24,946 bases of DNA, taken from the IMG/VR virus record IMGVR_UViG_3300030202_003194, positions 13,087 to 38,032 of that record. One strand, given 5' to 3'. Below the pieces are notes generated by a model that did not search any database, was not told the origin of the DNA, and saw nothing but the letters and a program-made list of their open reading frames with translations. The DNA is from a virus. Both the position numbers and the translations under genes were made by a program. This document shows positions 3,001 through 16,303 of the stretch, piece after piece (the first letter of the stretch is position 1; every line of letters starts with the position of its first letter).

Positions 3001-3277
3001 TAATAAGCAGGTCGCTAAATCTTTGATTTTGAATTTTATAATTATTGAAATTTAATGTTAGATTTGATATGCTAAACTTGTTAGTGTTAATGTTAATTGA
3101 CTCTTTTACATTGGATATTGACAATCCATAATCTTTAAATGCAGTTTGTAAATCATTTATACTTATTGACTCTTCTATTGTAGATATAAAGAACTCATTA
3201 TCGATTATAATTAATGGATATAAAGTAGAATTATTTCTTTCTATGTCTTTTTCTAAATTAGCAGATAAAGATAACAT
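1..3277 (-). CDS. Large tail tip/hub-like protein, 3' end outside window
   Basis: An uninterrupted minus-strand reading frame of 1092 codons starts at the ATG at 3277 and runs off the left edge, so the C-terminus is missing. The ATG overlaps the tape-measure stop codon (TAATG), implying coupled translation. The first ~170 residues have the look of siphophage tail-tip proteins: a region ending LVYRGVISKV, then a segment like 'VTLEDLTSLSLEKDVPI' and 'PIPITYGFVDKAPVIPW'. Near residue ~1010 a segment NPTDVIYHFLEKELGL resembles the 'P.dvi...L...lG' helix of lambda gpJ-type hubs. Much of the middle is Asn/Asp-rich and Trp-containing and unassigned; it may hold carbohydrate-binding or receptor-binding inserts. 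Position after the tape measure, size and these segments support a baseplate/tail-hub role at the tail tip. The family assignment is from pattern recognition only. Confidence 0.72.
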   Translation of the reverse strand, partial: MLSLSANLEKDIERNNSTLYPLIIIDNEFFISTIEESISINDLQTAFKDYGLSISNVKESININTNKFSISNLTLNFNNYKIQNQRFSDLLINKSNKFIDVYYKSQSCKNLEDCLLVYRGVISKVVHNDTKVTVTLEDLTSLSLEKDVPIANLGFSKNVFNKEYINKPIPITYGFVDKAPVIPWVDNVDIAGTTEISIIADDVSQVTGNERDIRIEDFSNPNDIPELKFETDLNNMDSPLFIYKGDYYRVLQNYNSNVEIVDEENFIAYDDNSQYSINESGQFLRIKKEFKGGYAQNAPAQNEFQAVKIQRPNQLEVLISEGGIPEDGNIGSIINTNPESGILRPEAAIDSNENPTVFFNNDPDNISEFQTFARIPNDELAPDNVEFFENNTVEVNLFANYNESGNKKGYWYPQENDTDIVERTNYLWHISSWLQANAHNLEETNIKFVSAPSGDMIITAAGQKLIDMQLRNPGEGQIFEVLNNSVNKVGIYPQYALSEKFKLAWLSKCEGIEGNEFEEGWGGNNANYQRTFDYFPEDVNNTLNPGFLMSQGDMYDRTYYNNSRIFSGLDKKTIYPSTVYKIQCDVNHDNNLQNIQNVYIGQWNDSMDGGLEDNEVFINLFDDGSDREFLYQKDDCASFIPFEIRDKHLDNSENNVLGTKYGAYYNGIEINSINGVSFNEGSSKIKTQKYAGGYGMFTSENYKISMDGLCDYDNQTGGNSGGQSWWMIVEGNIPKGNVLQNISTQQNNYLGEFFDANCNTEIKNNTLIPCGGKYSTQHTGRNFNYDYVSASNPNYVNLTIGSETTAEQRLSLLFPFPSIEADDALSGYTNTFVYGGLNVNIPSEIGTNITHQVGSLDTFLVQAYSTRQITSQDINYNSEFVGNAEDAANLLKIENIGSDNVELFNSGGSISWSVESFTDSADENNNQFESINEYRIENWDTPDKFDALALVYRIRSDEPNTENRAQISTDVNSLAVIQYCLFENVFSSSLYADVKGRHDWEFKYTDDGTLIENPTDVIYHFLEKELGLVDIIDEESLNNSRANTNDIKLAFSVNEKIKSKKLLEELSVNGKVFPKFKSNSNFSFININREYT

Positions 3278-5226
3278 TAACTCACTCCTATATCAGCACC
3301 TCTACGGATAGCTTCTTTTATTTGTGGTATCGCTTCATCCTCAATAAAATCCTTAGATAAAACATTTCCTTGAAACGATATATTTATAGCTGCACTACTT
3401 CCTGAGTTTATTCTATTTAAAGCTTCTACACCTACTGCATCAACACCTCTACGAGAAACTACAAACTCTCCTCTTTCTGCTTCTATCATAGTTCCTCCTT
3501 GGCTATGTAAACTACCCCCCACCAATCCTCCATAAGCAAATTTTGGAGCTTGTTGTGCTTTTATTTCTTGTACATTTTTAAAACCCATAGCACCAACTAA
3601 ACTTGCTATTATTGCAGCATAAGGCATAGCATGATCGTTTAAAGCTCTTGTCATACCACCATAAGTATCAATAACTGCTTGTCCTATTCTTGCATTTTGA
3701 TTATCTTTAAATGCCTTGTCCATATTCTTTTTATTTCTTTCTAAAACTTCATCTTCTAACTTCTTTTTTTGTTTATCAGAAGATCTTAAATATCTTTGGC
3801 TATTTCTTAATTGTTCTAACTCAAAGCTTTGTTGTTCTTTAACTGCATTCATTTGGACATTAGAAGATTCTAAAAAAGAGTCAGCTAAATCTGAAGCAAA
3901 TTTAATACTTTCTTTTTTTACTGCATTCCGACCTTCCTCTTCTTCTTTTAATTTTTGTATAGCTTCTAATTCTTTTTGATAAGACTCAAATAAATCTTTA
4001 TTAACATCAACAAGTTCTATACCGTTTTCAATAGCAAATTTCTCTATTTCAGTTTTTGCTTTCATTAAATCCATTTTCTTTTGTATTGAAGCATTAGCAG
4101 CCTTTACTTTGTCTGCATATTCATTTTCTATTGCAGCTACTTCTTCTGTAGTTCTACCAAACTCATCAAGCTCATCTTGATTGTCTTTAAATAAATCGAA
4201 ATAATCTATTGTAGCAGTACTTGCAGCTACAAGACCAGCTATTATTAAATATAATTTATTTTTTTTCAAGGCACTATTAAATGCTAAAGTAGCAGTCTTT
4301 GCAGATACTAAAGCATTTTTAAATCCTATGGTTTGTAATTTCGCAGCCCCCATAGCTAATGCTGCAATACTTGTAGCAGTAGCAAATGCTTTCATTCTTT
4401 CGGCAGTTAGATTTTCTGCTAAAAACTTAAATGCTTTAGCTAAACTTAATACAAGAGGAGCTAAGACTTGACCTATTTGTTCAGCTGCATCTCCAAAAGC
4501 ATTACTTGCTTGAGCTAATTGACCTTTTGTTGTTTTACCAAGAGTTTCTGCTAATCCTCCGAATTTTGTTTCTACAGAAGCAACTACATTTGCTATTTTT
4601 TCATTTTTTTCTGTAGCTCCTTGTGCACCAACTCCATATCTTGTTAAGGCATCAGTAGATGAACCGATAGTTTTTGCTACTAATAAACCAGCAGTATTTA
4701 AATCTAAATTTAAACCTGCAGCTAAATCCATAGTAGCTTTAGTTAATTGTTTGGTTTGTTCAACATTTGCTCCAAATGCTCCAATTTGCGACATTAAAAC
4801 ATTTGTGCTTTCATCTCCAAACACAGTTGTTTTTTGTAATTCTGATGAATACTTATCTAATGCCCTTGCACCATCTCCACCAAAAACCATAGCTAATCTT
4901 CTTACAGAATCTTCCTGTTCTCCTGCTTTTTTAACAAAATTTACAAAAGCAGTTGTAGCAAAGGTTACTGCAAATGAAGCAAGTAACATTCTGTTTCTAT
5001 ATATAGCTATTACTGATTGAGCTCTTGTAAGAGCTGATGAATTTGCATTAACAGCTTTAGTATTAGCACTTACTCTATGTGTTAATAACTTTTGTGTTTG
5101 AGCATTTTTTGTTTGTGTTCCGTCTAATTTTCTTTGTGCTTTAGCTAATCTATCAATAGCCTTTATAAGATTAGGAGCTCCCTTTGCTTTAAAATCTATT
5201 ACTAATGCTCTTTTTGCATTTGCCAT
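3277..5226 (-). CDS. Tail tape-measure protein
   Basis: This 649-residue protein follows the tail chaperones and precedes the tail-tip gene, the standard tape-measure position. The N-terminal ~90 residues are Lys/Ala/Gln-rich helix. Hydrophobic segments follow near residues 80-98, 270-290, 325-340 and 545-560, with long charged coiled-coil stretches around residues 350-520. The C-terminal part has the motif KFAYGGLVGGSLHSQGGTMI followed by AERGEFVVSRRGVDAVG, common at the ends of marine siphophage tape measures. Using the established rule of about 0.15 nm per residue, a tail of very roughly 100 nm is expected. A ribosome site AAGG lies shortly before the ATG. No peptidase or lysozyme domain is recognisable inside it. 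Confidence 0.92.
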   Translation of the reverse strand: MANAKRALVIDFKAKGAPNLIKAIDRLAKAQRKLDGTQTKNAQTQKLLTHRVSANTKAVNANSSALTRAQSVIAIYRNRMLLASFAVTFATTAFVNFVKKAGEQEDSVRRLAMVFGGDGARALDKYSSELQKTTVFGDESTNVLMSQIGAFGANVEQTKQLTKATMDLAAGLNLDLNTAGLLVAKTIGSSTDALTRYGVGAQGATEKNEKIANVVASVETKFGGLAETLGKTTKGQLAQASNAFGDAAEQIGQVLAPLVLSLAKAFKFLAENLTAERMKAFATATSIAALAMGAAKLQTIGFKNALVSAKTATLAFNSALKKNKLYLIIAGLVAASTATIDYFDLFKDNQDELDEFGRTTEEVAAIENEYADKVKAANASIQKKMDLMKAKTEIEKFAIENGIELVDVNKDLFESYQKELEAIQKLKEEEEGRNAVKKESIKFASDLADSFLESSNVQMNAVKEQQSFELEQLRNSQRYLRSSDKQKKKLEDEVLERNKKNMDKAFKDNQNARIGQAVIDTYGGMTRALNDHAMPYAAIIASLVGAMGFKNVQEIKAQQAPKFAYGGLVGGSLHSQGGTMIEAERGEFVVSRRGVDAVGVEALNRINSGSSAAINISFQGNVLSKDFIEDEAIPQIKEAIRRGADIGVS

Positions 5227-5227
5227 A

Positions 5228-5647
5228 TTAAACCTTTTTATCTTTTATTTTATTTATTTGTGAAGATTCCTTTTTAGCGAATGATGATTTTATAATAAAA
5301 AAAGTATCTATCCACATCGCTGGTTGTTCTCCATAACTGCCATTATAAGGCGATATTCCTAATTCTTTACAATATATATACCTTTGTATATCTTTTTGTA
5401 TATCTCTGTCAAAAACATTGTTTCTACAAGAAAAAAAAGGCAATTGAGCATTGATAGATTCAGAAACATCAAACTCCTTGCCTTTTGTATTCATTTCTTT
5501 AACTTCCTTTATTAGCAAATCGACAACATTCCAAACATCTTCTTTGCAATTAAAAGTTTTTGTTTGTCTTTTACCATTTATTAATATAGGTAGACGAGCT
5601 TTATAAGGGAAGGAATGAAATTTACAGCCTCCACAGGTTTCCCCCAA
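5228..5647 (-). CDS. Tail assembly chaperone, downstream (T-like) frame
   Basis: This 139-codon frame sits between the G-like chaperone ORF and the tape measure. Its only possible start upstream of residue 52 is a TTG at 5647 with no Shine-Dalgarno sequence, in a genome where most genes have strong ones. The frame stays open upstream to about 5723 and overlaps the end of the 5659-5940 gene in the -1 frame. It is therefore probably translated by -1 frameshifting: 87 residues of the upstream protein plus 150 more give a 237-residue fusion (5940-5680 joined to 5680-5228). The region is Cys-rich (C5, C8 as CGGC, then C34, C74, C93) and ends with GSYGEQPAMWIDTFFIIKSS. The alternative is an independent protein started at TTG; the Cys pattern near its N-terminus leaves that open. 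Expected role: the fusion coats or recruits tape measure and tube protein during tail assembly and is absent from the virion. Confidence 0.72.
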   Translation of the reverse strand: MGETCGGCKFHSFPYKARLPILINGKRQTKTFNCKEDVWNVVDLLIKEVKEMNTKGKEFDVSESINAQLPFFSCRNNVFDRDIQKDIQRYIYCKELGISPYNGSYGEQPAMWIDTFFIIKSSFAKKESSQINKIKDKKV

Positions 5648-5683
5648 AATATTTAATTCTATTTGGAGGCTTCTTCTTCCCCC
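5626..5683 (-). promoter_or_regulatory. Candidate -1 programmed ribosomal frameshift signal
   Basis: On the minus strand the zero frame reads ATG GGG GAA near the end of the G-like ORF, with five consecutive G at 5683-5679. Then come five bases (5676-5672) and the left arm AGCCTCCA (5671-5664), perfectly complementary to TGGAGGCT (5633-5626): an 8-bp stem enclosing 30 nt. Slip site, 5-nt spacer and stem match the geometry of bacterial -1 frameshift signals, and the target frame is open through to 5228. The loop also holds GGGAA (5643-5639), which could pair with TTCCC (5611-5607) as a pseudoknot. The weak point is that after a -1 slip the A-site codon GAA becomes GGA, so only P-site GGG re-pairs perfectly. 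Confidence 0.6.
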
Positions 5684-5940
5684 ATTGTGAACATCCCTTG
5701 TAAAATTGTGAATAACTCTGTTTTTTCTTCAAAAGTATATTTGATTAAAGCTTTATCAGAAATATCTCCATCAATGCAAGTTCTTATCCACTTAGTCATT
5801 GTGCTATTCATCATTTTTACTCCAGAGAAAGAGCCATCATCTTTGTATATATATTCAACACTATCTAAAAGCATATCTCTTTCATCTAAAGTGATGTTTT
5901 TTATTTTAAGCTTTCTACCACTTTTTAACTTAACTTCCAT
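5659..5940 (-). CDS. Tail assembly chaperone, short (G-like) form
   Basis: This 93-residue protein starts with an ATG preceded by a clear GAGGAG site. It lies 20 bases after the tube protein and before the tape measure, the classic place of the lambda G/GT pair. The N-terminus (MEVKLKSGRKLKIKNITLDE) resembles short chaperones that begin with a beta hairpin, followed by helices. The annotated stop is the TAG at 5659; a fraction of ribosomes is predicted to bypass it by slipping to -1 at the G5 run, producing the long form. It should act in the cytoplasm as a non-structural chaperone that keeps the tape measure soluble. The role is inferred from position, size and the frameshift arrangement rather than a diagnostic motif. 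Confidence 0.75.
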   Translation of the reverse strand: MEVKLKSGRKLKIKNITLDERDMLLDSVEYIYKDDGSFSGVKMMNSTMTKWIRTCIDGDISDKALIKYTFEEKTELFTILQGMFTMGEEEASK

Positions 5941-5960: not shown

Positions 5961-6956
5961 TTATGATGTTATATCTATTGTTACTAAAGCTCCTGATCCA
6001 TCAGCAGTACCCATAAATGGTAATTCAACAAACACACCACTATCTGTACTTGTATGGCTATGTCCTGTGTATTTAGCTGTTGGAATATCAAAATCTATAG
6101 TAGAACCATCTCCTATGCTAACATTAGCAGAAGTTCCTACAAGAAAATCTTCAGTAATAACTTGAGCTGTATTGTCATCTAACTTAACACTAACAGTTCC
6201 TGTAACTGATATTTGTCCACCTCTCATATAAGCACAAGGTTCTCCATTAATACTATTTACAGTTTCATATCCAACTCTTGTTGCAGGATTAGATATTGTT
6301 AATTCAAAATTATTCATAACAACATCATCTCCACCTATTTGTGAAGTTGTACAATCAAAGAATCCCTTAGTGTAATCAACTGCTGTAGCATCAGGAGATG
6401 TACTCTCTGCTCCAATAACAGGTTGATAGCCACTAAAGAAAGTACCACTTGCAGTTAATAAACCACCATTAGTATCTGGACTCATACTTAAAGTTAGTTC
6501 TTGTAATATAGCACTATGCATTAACCTATCTTTATCTGCATCAGGAGAAGATAATACAACACAAGCATACTCGCCTGTTGATGCACCTTGTTCGTATGCA
6601 ACAGTTCCTTGATTTCCTAAAATCTGAACAGTTCCTGAAGGACTTGAGTCTTCGCTTACTAATTGCAATAATACTTGCAATAATGCTTGATTTTCAACTA
6701 CAAGATTATCAAAAGACCAAGTAAAAGTACCCCCATTATATTTTTTGATATGATCTGTCGGTCTTAAAACTCTTTGTCCTGTTCTTTCAACATCGGCAGT
6801 TACAAAACCTTCTGAAAAATCTATATCATTAACTTCAGGAAGTCTTAACTTATATAAAGTTCCTGAAACACTATTAGCTCCAAGATTGCCTGTTTGAAGC
6901 GAAACATAAGCTTCATACTGCTTTCCCGAGTATACTGTATTGTCTAAACCAGCCAT
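5961..6956 (-). CDS. Major tail tube protein
   Basis: A 331-residue beta-rich, Cys-poor protein directly upstream of the chaperone pair. Its start overlaps the stop of the preceding 60-residue gene (TAATG). N-terminal MAGLDNTVYSGKQYEAYVSL and the segment DIDFSEGFVTADVERTGQRV, then 'GGTFTWSFDNLVV', are typical of tail-tube proteins that open with a hairpin docking the next ring. The C-terminal ~100 residues (from about residue 225) are Gly/Thr/Asp-rich and could form an extra surface domain, because tube proteins are often only 150-250 residues. It forms the hexameric rings of the non-contractile tail. Position, composition and length support the call; no catalytic residues are expected. Confidence 0.82.
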   Translation of the reverse strand: MAGLDNTVYSGKQYEAYVSLQTGNLGANSVSGTLYKLRLPEVNDIDFSEGFVTADVERTGQRVLRPTDHIKKYNGGTFTWSFDNLVVENQALLQVLLQLVSEDSSPSGTVQILGNQGTVAYEQGASTGEYACVVLSSPDADKDRLMHSAILQELTLSMSPDTNGGLLTASGTFFSGYQPVIGAESTSPDATAVDYTKGFFDCTTSQIGGDDVVMNNFELTISNPATRVGYETVNSINGEPCAYMRGGQISVTGTVSVKLDDNTAQVITEDFLVGTSANVSIGDGSTIDFDIPTAKYTGHSHTSTDSGVFVELPFMGTADGSGALVTIDITS

Positions 6957-13918: not shown

Positions 13919-14006
13919 TCTTAAAGTATTTTTTATATTCCTTTATGTCTTGTTGCCAAAACTTTAAAGATTTTTTTAATATTTTATTGTATTGTTTTTT
14001 AGTCAT
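13902..14006 (-). CDS. 34-residue basic helical ORF
   Basis: A tiny ORF whose ATG overlaps the stop codon of the 765-residue fibre gene (TAATG) and whose end overlaps the start of the 699-residue gene by 17 bases. It bridges an otherwise empty 88-base interval. The product begins MTKKQYNKILKKSLKFWQQD and is Lys-rich, predicted to be a single helix. Its main value may be to carry ribosomes from one large gene to the next, because the following gene lacks a clear ribosome site. No family is recognised. Confidence 0.5.
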   Translation of the reverse strand: MTKKQYNKILKKSLKFWQQDIKEYKKYFKNETSK

Positions 14007-16303
14007 TAGAAATTTAAACTTGCTACTCCATAACAAACTTCCTCAGTCGCATCCCAATAAAAAGATAATATATCTCTTTTGTTTCCACCATCAGTTAAAT
14101 CAGGAACAGAACCACCTGACCATCTTACAGCACCTGCTGAACCACCATCATTAGAACCTGCATTACCTGCTGAATCTTTAGTAGCATAAGCATTTATAGT
14201 TCTTGTAGAACCATCCTGTTGTACTACTAAGACAAAATTCCCTGATACAGCAGGAAATTGCATTGTTAATGTTCCAGTTATACTTCCTCCTGTCATATCT
14301 AAGTGTGCTTTATTACCTGTTCTAAAATCAACAGTAACATTGGTTGCATCTGCATAAGTAGTTCTTGTAAATCCTGCTGCACATCCATCAAAGTTTATAT
14401 GTCCACTTGAATCAAAATCTAAACTTCCTGATATAATTTTATCTAAAGAAGAAATAGTTAAATCCCCACTTGAGTAAGTTACATCTGACAAATCATTTAA
14501 GGCAGATGCTCCACCACCACCACTTGAAGCTATTGTTATATTATCAGCATCAGTATGTGTTAGTGTTATATTAGAACCTGCTACAAATTTAATATCATCA
14601 GTTCCACTACCTGCTCCACCTGTTGTATTTCTTAGTATAATATCATCGCTACTATCTACAAATGATAGTGTAGTAGTATTTTGTGTATTATCGTTAGCAG
14701 TCATATCATCCACAGCTAAATCTATAGTTCCATCAGAATCTTGGTAGGTTGCTGCAACCCTTGTTTCAGTATTAGATGTAAACATAGCTCCAACTATATC
14801 TTGAACTGCTTCAGTAGTTAATGGAGCTCCATCAAGTGTAGTTACTACATCTATTGTTCCATCGCCATCTTGATAAGTAACTGCTGTATTAGTTTCTGTA
14901 TTACTTGTAAACATAGCACCTACTATATCCTGAACTTGCTCTGTAGAAAGCTGTGTATCAGTATTTGTTACTGTATTAGTAATAGTAACTGTTCCATCTG
15001 CAGTTGTTTCACAAGTTATACCTGTTCCTGCAGCAAACATTAAGTCATCGCCTTGAGATATTGTTGTTGCATTACTATCAGTTGTAGCAGATACTGTAAA
15101 TGTTGTTAATTGATTTGTATTTGTATCAGCAGTCATATCGTCTACAGCTAAATCAATCGTGCCATCCCCATCTTGATATGTAGCACTTATTCTTGTTTCT
15201 GTGTTTGAAGAAAACATTGCACCTACAATGTCTTGCACTTGTTCTGTTGTTAGTGTTGCAGTTATAAATCCTGATGAACTGTTATCATAGTTTGATAAAT
15301 CATTATCCACTACCAAATCTACAGTACCATCTCCATCTTGGTATGTAGCAGTTATAAGAGTTTCAGTATTGCTACTAAACATAGCTCCTACCTTGTCTTG
15401 TACTTGCTCGTCAGTTAAAGTAGCAGTTACAAAACCTGAATCATTATTAAATGCAGATAATGGTATTTCAGATATTAATTTTCTTCTATCTGCTCCATTA
15501 TCCAGTATTATTAACTCATCTTCAGAACTATTAACACTTGCAGTCATATCTGTAAGCTCAGACATATCTAAAGTTAAAGTAACATCACTTGATGTTCCAC
15601 CACCACTAAGTCCTACACCTGCAACAACTGAAGTTATATCCCCACCACCACTACCTGCCAATCCTGATCCACTTGTTATTTGTATAACATCATTGTTATC
15701 ATTCCTAAAATAAAGCTCATTAGGAGATTCATTTTTTACATATAACTGACCATATCCTGCTGAGTTTGCAACTCCTCCTGTTGTTTCTGCTAATACAAAC
15801 TGCCCTGTAGAGTGAAGTTTTGCAACCATCTCTTGTGTATTTGTAGCAAATGTTCCCTTCCACCATATAAATCCAAAAGACGAATCATCTCCACAAGTGT
15901 TATATACAGAAGATTGTGCTTCTAAAGATAATGTTGCAGCACCTGAACCACTTGTTTTTATAAAAGTGCTACCACTTGTAAATATATTAAACCACAGTCC
16001 TGCATCAGGAGATGTGGCATCTTTGCTTTGCATTATAAATTGTGGTGTGTAAAATCCTGCTGACTTGTTTCCTTTTATTATGGAAACTTGTAATTCTTGT
16101 GTTTTTTCTTTTAAAGTAACAAATTCTTCTGCTGAAGATAATATCTTGCCATCTGCAAATTCTAATCCTGTTGATTTACCACCTATTTTTAATGGTTTAA
16201 AATCCTTGTCTATATTAGAGTCCGAGCCTAATGAAATTGGATTTTTTCTTTTAGGCTCGAAATCTGAAGGACTACTTGTATTTATACTTTTTCTTATAGG
16301 CAT
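14006..16303 (-). CDS. Long tail fibre-like protein with internal repeats
   Basis: A 765-residue fibre. Residues 1-60 look like a virion-attachment segment (MPIRKSINTSSPSDFEPKRK). Residues ~60-210 form a Gly/Ser-rich beta region with Trp clusters. Residues ~222-250 hold 'DITSVVAGVGLSGGGTSSDV', the 'I..V.aG.GL.GGg..gdvtL' shaft motif. Four copies of a ~38-residue repeat (QVQDIVGAMFSSNTET followed by TYQDGDGTIDL) lie at about 297-334, 352-389, 454-488 and 496-533. The C-terminal ~120 residues (FVLVVQQDGSTRTINAYATK, then GGNKRDILSFYW and ending YGVASLNF) are the receptor-tip domain type common in marine podo- and siphophage fibres. AAGGG precedes the ATG. It is probably trimeric and decides host range. 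Confidence 0.78.
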   Translation of the reverse strand: MPIRKSINTSSPSDFEPKRKNPISLGSDSNIDKDFKPLKIGGKSTGLEFADGKILSSAEEFVTLKEKTQELQVSIIKGNKSAGFYTPQFIMQSKDATSPDAGLWFNIFTSGSTFIKTSGSGAATLSLEAQSSVYNTCGDDSSFGFIWWKGTFATNTQEMVAKLHSTGQFVLAETTGGVANSAGYGQLYVKNESPNELYFRNDNNDVIQITSGSGLAGSGGGDITSVVAGVGLSGGGTSSDVTLTLDMSELTDMTASVNSSEDELIILDNGADRRKLISEIPLSAFNNDSGFVTATLTDEQVQDKVGAMFSSNTETLITATYQDGDGTVDLVVDNDLSNYDNSSSGFITATLTTEQVQDIVGAMFSSNTETRISATYQDGDGTIDLAVDDMTADTNTNQLTTFTVSATTDSNATTISQGDDLMFAAGTGITCETTADGTVTITNTVTNTDTQLSTEQVQDIVGAMFTSNTETNTAVTYQDGDGTIDVVTTLDGAPLTTEAVQDIVGAMFTSNTETRVAATYQDSDGTIDLAVDDMTANDNTQNTTTLSFVDSSDDIILRNTTGGAGSGTDDIKFVAGSNITLTHTDADNITIASSGGGGASALNDLSDVTYSSGDLTISSLDKIISGSLDFDSSGHINFDGCAAGFTRTTYADATNVTVDFRTGNKAHLDMTGGSITGTLTMQFPAVSGNFVLVVQQDGSTRTINAYATKDSAGNAGSNDGGSAGAVRWSGGSVPDLTDGGNKRDILSFYWDATEEVCYGVASLNF
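14705..15415 (-). repeat. Four-copy coding repeat in fibre shaft
   Basis: Four related units of about 105-115 bases encode the fibre repeat containing VGAMFxSNTET and YQDGDGTIDL. Units are roughly at 15302-15415, 15137-15250, 14840-14944 and 14705-14818, with variable linkers. DNA identity between copies is partial, with synonymous differences throughout, indicating old duplications maintained by selection rather than recent expansion. Unit one carries K for I in the QDIVG segment and unit four has QDSDG for QDGDG. Confidence 0.75.

Follow-up and report, generated by a model that had tools for sequence, protein, structure and literature searches.

The slip site of phage lambda, GGGAAAG, is a classic heptamer of the X_XXY_YYZ type. 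In the lambda G/GT system, the chaperone is made short or, through a -1 shift, as a longer fusion, and both act between tube protein and tape measure (PMC5009743). The 'fivetwo' motif of the PRFect study took the form GGGGGAA in every one of its approximately one thousand occurrences among annotated actinophage tail-chaperone frameshifts; the training set of that study averages 64% GC, and its authors put forward a G-U re-pairing of tRNA-Glu at this heptamer (PMC10885494). The heptamer is already known from PRFect and the corynephage phi16, and the general strategy from lambda (PMC10885494, PMC5506516, PMC5009743). We found no earlier description in the literature of such a frameshift in the phage group considered here.

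The locus lies on the minus strand of a stretch of 24,946 nucleotides (hereafter the window; GC content 32%), which is part of a virus record of 38,032 bases. ORF1 (5659..5940, minus strand), with an ATG and AGGAG upstream of it, encodes the normal translation product of 93 aa, a probable G-like tail-assembly chaperone. ORF2 (5228..5728, minus strand), a predicted T-like extension that contains a CGGC motif, is in the -1 frame and, as the initial annotation had stated, possesses neither an ATG nor a ribosome site of its own; the last upstream stop in its frame is at 5731-5729, after which the frame is open until the stop ending at 5228. The overlap of the two frames that had been noted is real, but spans 70 nt instead of about 65 bases. 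The next gene downstream (3277..5226, minus strand) encodes the tape measure protein, matching PHROG 3336 (tail length tape measure) with E = 9.3e-13, whereas the upstream gene (5961..6956, minus strand), without any family match, is named a probable major tail (tube) protein from its position only. The proposed placement of the pair between tube and tape measure genes is thus supported on the tape measure side and positional on the other. Elsewhere in the window (14006-16303, minus strand) we have identified a 765-aa protein with repeats of the LTTEQVQDIVGAMF type, affiliated with PHROG 30390 (unknown function), which is perhaps a tail fibre.

Within the overlap, the slippery heptamer G_GGG_GAA (5677..5683, minus strand) is followed by the 5-nt spacer GAAGA (5672..5676, minus strand) and by a perfect 8-bp stem, in which AGCCTCCA (5671-5664), still within the dual-coding stretch, pairs with TGGAGGCT (5633-5626), located over the CGGC codons; both arms are on the minus strand. 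The ORF1 stop codon TAG (5659..5661, minus strand) is in the stem loop, as is a second GGGGGAAACC run (5636-5645, minus strand), present in the window only and absent from its relatives. The run of five G, the spacer and the stem were located exactly as first described. A -1 shift at G_GGG_GAA gives a product of 237 residues, and both predicted product lengths, 93 and 237 residues, were correct.

Direct searches identified six viral loci, and a profile of ORF2 identified 77 related viral loci; 79 loci, including the window, show both frames, and the overlap of every one contains GGGGGA[AG], always as G_GGG_GAR. Querying with L078, a distant member, yielded 119 matching loci; 80 of these were retained as a second clade (L083-L162; 25 distinct sequences). 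Altogether, the comparison set comprises 151 related viral loci and the window (152 loci), represented by 84 distinct sequences of 90 bases each, counted from the heptamer on, with repeated contigs left out. No relatives of ORF2 were found in the bacterial and archaeal genome collection or in the phage-isolate collection. One record, IMGVR_UViG_3300030102_002442 (51,435 bases), carries two chaperone loci, L136 and L149 (contig positions 3150-9584 and 35931-42365), whose identity to the query is 81% and 79%; the record either holds a pair of tail cassettes or is an assembly that has fused two phages.

All 84 distinct sequences, and with them the 152 loci, carry GGGGGA[A/G] in the frame G_GGG_GAR, with none out of frame: 78 have GGGGGAA and six GGGGGAG, the A-site codon being GAR in 84/84. 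Even L114, the contig of which begins very close to the heptamer, carries it. For comparison, GGGGGA occurs three times in the window on both strands, corresponding to about 0.004 occurrences expected in any given 70 nt of one strand. Among relatives with 43-69% identity to the window's ORF2, the heptamer, the spacer and the stem are conserved, so that the alignment proposed in the initial annotation speaks for its reading. We conclude from this comparative evidence that ORF1 and ORF2 are very probably one gene read two ways through a -1 frameshift at the G-run; a lambda-like frameshift in a tail chaperone pair, as first suggested, is supported by the relatives. A continuous protein across two frames can also resemble an indel, but a disrupted gene or an error in sequencing has a negligible probability here, being excluded by relatives from two clades that show the same arrangement in 152 loci.

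It could further be argued that ORF2 is a separate gene with a non-ATG start, such as the TTG available at 5647 in the list of open reading frames, or that its translation is coupled to the nearby ORF1 stop. The TTG is, however, not conserved, and an ORF2 with its own ATG and ribosome site was found in none of the relatives: an in-frame ATG near the head of ORF2 is present in just 15 of 85 sequences and accompanied by a ribosome site in 0 of them, whereas ORF1 has a Shine-Dalgarno (SD)-like stretch in 81/81 tested. As a separate start would also leave the invariant G-run, the fixed spacing and the stem unexplained, we regard it as very unlikely.

The frameshift at the G-run is bounded most narrowly in the second clade. 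There, a TAG in the -1 frame precedes the G-run by 3 nt, and ORF1 ends with a TAG immediately behind GGGGGAA, which confines the change of frame to 13 nt; the heptamer is the sole repetitive stretch in this space. In L007, a -1-frame stop abuts the G-run, so that 25 nt remain for the shift. In L074-L076 the ORF1 stop TAG follows immediately after GGGGGAG.

The sequence upstream of the heptamer was considered separately for the two clades. AGGA occurs about 12 nt upstream in 24/24 usable distinct sequences of the second clade (6.1 expected from synonymous shuffling) and is possibly a stimulator, but since these sequences are close relatives the observation is merely a lead. An SD-like stimulator upstream of the heptamer is no commoner than chance in the main clade (36/61 versus 33.4 expected). 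The arrangement G_GGG_GAA_UAG of the second clade might also be read as a shift driven by slow termination, with the stop codon in the A site, tRNA-Glu in the P site and the upstream AGGA aiding. We consider this improbable; if it were true, sister phage groups would exploit one heptamer in two different ways.

Taken alone, the downstream stem of the window is only mildly unusual (P = 0.03 when its 3' side was shuffled synonymously 200 times), and the fold of the region has z = -1.76. The case for the frameshift draws its weight from conservation (84/84). Among 46 sequences of the main clade, the eight pairs are standard in 96.6% of cases, and at pair 14-57 both sides have changed in 12 sequences, from G-C to C-G. 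The covariation score of the clade was reached by 0/500 shuffles. On the tree, pair 14-57 needs at least five changes, but its exchange of G-C for C-G may have happened only once, which makes covariation alone modest evidence. Elsewhere the helix is re-formed in another register, as AAGCCTCAGAC/GTTTGAGGCTT in the L041 group, CCCTC/GAGGG in the L063 group and AACCCTC/GAGGGTT in L078. In L074-L076 the usual stem is replaced by a different predicted structure, AATCGGT/GCCGATT around a second hairpin.

Dual coding accounts for part of the conservation in the overlap. The CGGC motif, over which the 3' arm is located, has its first glycine outside the dual-coding stretch; this residue is encoded by GGA or GGG in 41/41 sequences, whereas all four codons occur at other conserved glycines. 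This restriction of third positions lends the predicted stem support that is separate from covariation. The only conserved pairings of at least 5 bases in the main clade are the stem and a competing hairpin between the G-run and CCTCC. The RNAalifold consensus prefers the latter, with the G-run paired to the CCTCC arm in free RNA; this pairing was set aside, as it would be melted by a ribosome occupying the slip site. The possible pseudoknot arm of the initial annotation did not hold: a search across the 46 main-clade sequences found no conserved pairing between the loop and sequence further downstream.

The stem and the heptamer also bear on a shift made by RNA polymerase, in which one G is added within the G-run during transcription. 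A run of identical bases does lie at the crossover, and one added G would give the identical fusion frame. Polymerase slippage, however, usually requires more extended runs, for the most part A or T tracts, and five G are generally short for it; moreover, it would have no need for a conserved downstream stem or an invariant Glu codon. Transcriptional slippage is hence extremely unlikely as compared with the ribosomal shift.

The architecture of the locus, the conservation of heptamer and helix and the 13-nt limit in one clade are direct observations, from which we infer that the shift would occur in cells, its efficiency, which tRNAs slip and what the products do in assembly. Most ribosomes would terminate at the ORF1 stop, yielding the 93-residue chaperone. 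A minority would be stalled by the 8-bp stem with G_GGG_GAA in the decoding sites, move back by one base and proceed in the -1 frame, giving the 237-residue fusion. The P-site tRNA-Gly would re-pair perfectly, from GGG to GGG, and the A-site tRNA-Glu would most likely exchange GAA for GGA, with a single G-U pair at the second codon position. A slip of both tRNAs would give the junction M-G-E-R-R-S-L-Q. By analogy with lambda gpG and gpGT, coating of the tape measure protein would fall to the short form and recruitment of tube subunits to the fusion.

The G-U pair is also the reason why the site departs from the classic X_XXY_YYZ pattern, in which both shifted tRNAs keep standard pairs at positions one and two of their codons, in agreement with the initial annotation, although mispairing in the A site is milder than was claimed there. 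The variant P-site slip then invoked is not required, since tRNA-Glu can re-pair with GGA through this single pair, and the predicted junction changes accordingly: MG-GRRSLQ holds for a P-site-only slip and becomes MGERRSLQ if both tRNAs slip. In a P-site-only slip, tRNA-Gly would move before tRNA-Glu enters, with the junction M-G-G-R-R-S-L-Q; this differs from the two-tRNA route in mechanistic detail alone and profits from the perfect re-pairing of GGG with GGG and from the need of a middle-position G-U pair in the A site. It would, on the other hand, tolerate other A-site codons, yet GAR was found in 84/84, a weak argument given the two-frame coding, and the G-U re-pairing was proposed by PRFect's authors (PMC10885494). 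The P-site-only slip is a serious but somewhat doubtful candidate. The invariance of the Glu codon mildly favours slippage of both tRNAs, though the same codon is constrained by coding in two frames. Compact natural sites such as these, one of them limited to 13 nt, are useful for asking whether one tRNA slips or two.

Both proteins were modelled with AlphaFold2 (mean pLDDT 89 for ORF1 and 88 for ORF2). In Foldseek comparisons with annotated tail assembly chaperones, the ORF1 model had its best named match in Bacillus phage 019DV002 (E = 0.0034, probability 1.00) and also matched Mu FS-gp41 (E = 0.079), the scores being only moderate; its fold gave no significant match in PDB. These matches are consistent with ORF1 being a probable tail-assembly chaperone. 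ORF1 also had a weak hit to the Pfam family MRP-S27, which scored below the family cut-off and was disregarded. The ORF2 fold matched unnamed viral models only (E < 0.001). Its CGGC region showed, in a profile search against PDB, a weak match to the FAD-linked sulfhydryl oxidase 3gwl (E = 0.011), perhaps merely shared cysteine spacing. At E < 0.01, the window's ORF2 had no match among Pfam or PHROG families, and at E < 0.001 both ORF1 and ORF2 were without one, so automatic annotation would split or miss the pair.

Overall, an uncultivated phage group thereby gains its probable tail chaperone pair. What is new here is the site in this group, for whose pair no isolate relative was found, the 13-nt limit and the support that numerous relatives give to the stem. 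Compared with lambda G/GT, the locus has the same combination of a short chaperone and a longer predicted -1 fusion, but the lambda heptamer is classic and that of the window is not, and for the window's pair no similarity in protein sequence to a known family was found. Corynephage phi16 gp14/gp14A (KY250482) is like the window in having GGGGGAA in the same frame; its stop follows one codon after the heptamer (GED*), its -1 product begins with GGR, and its gene is flanked by those for the tape measure and the major tail protein, a setting that is probable for the window. It differs in that there is no detectable sequence match and its authors propose a pseudoknot, of which none is conserved in the window's relatives. 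With the 'fivetwo' actinophage chaperones the window shares G_GGG_GAA in the 0 frame, the kind of gene and the -1 direction, and the likeness rests on these three features; the actinophages are of high GC content (64% on average in the PRFect training set, versus 32%). The predicted use of the GGGGGAA slip site would thus extend from high-GC actinophages to a phage of 32% GC.
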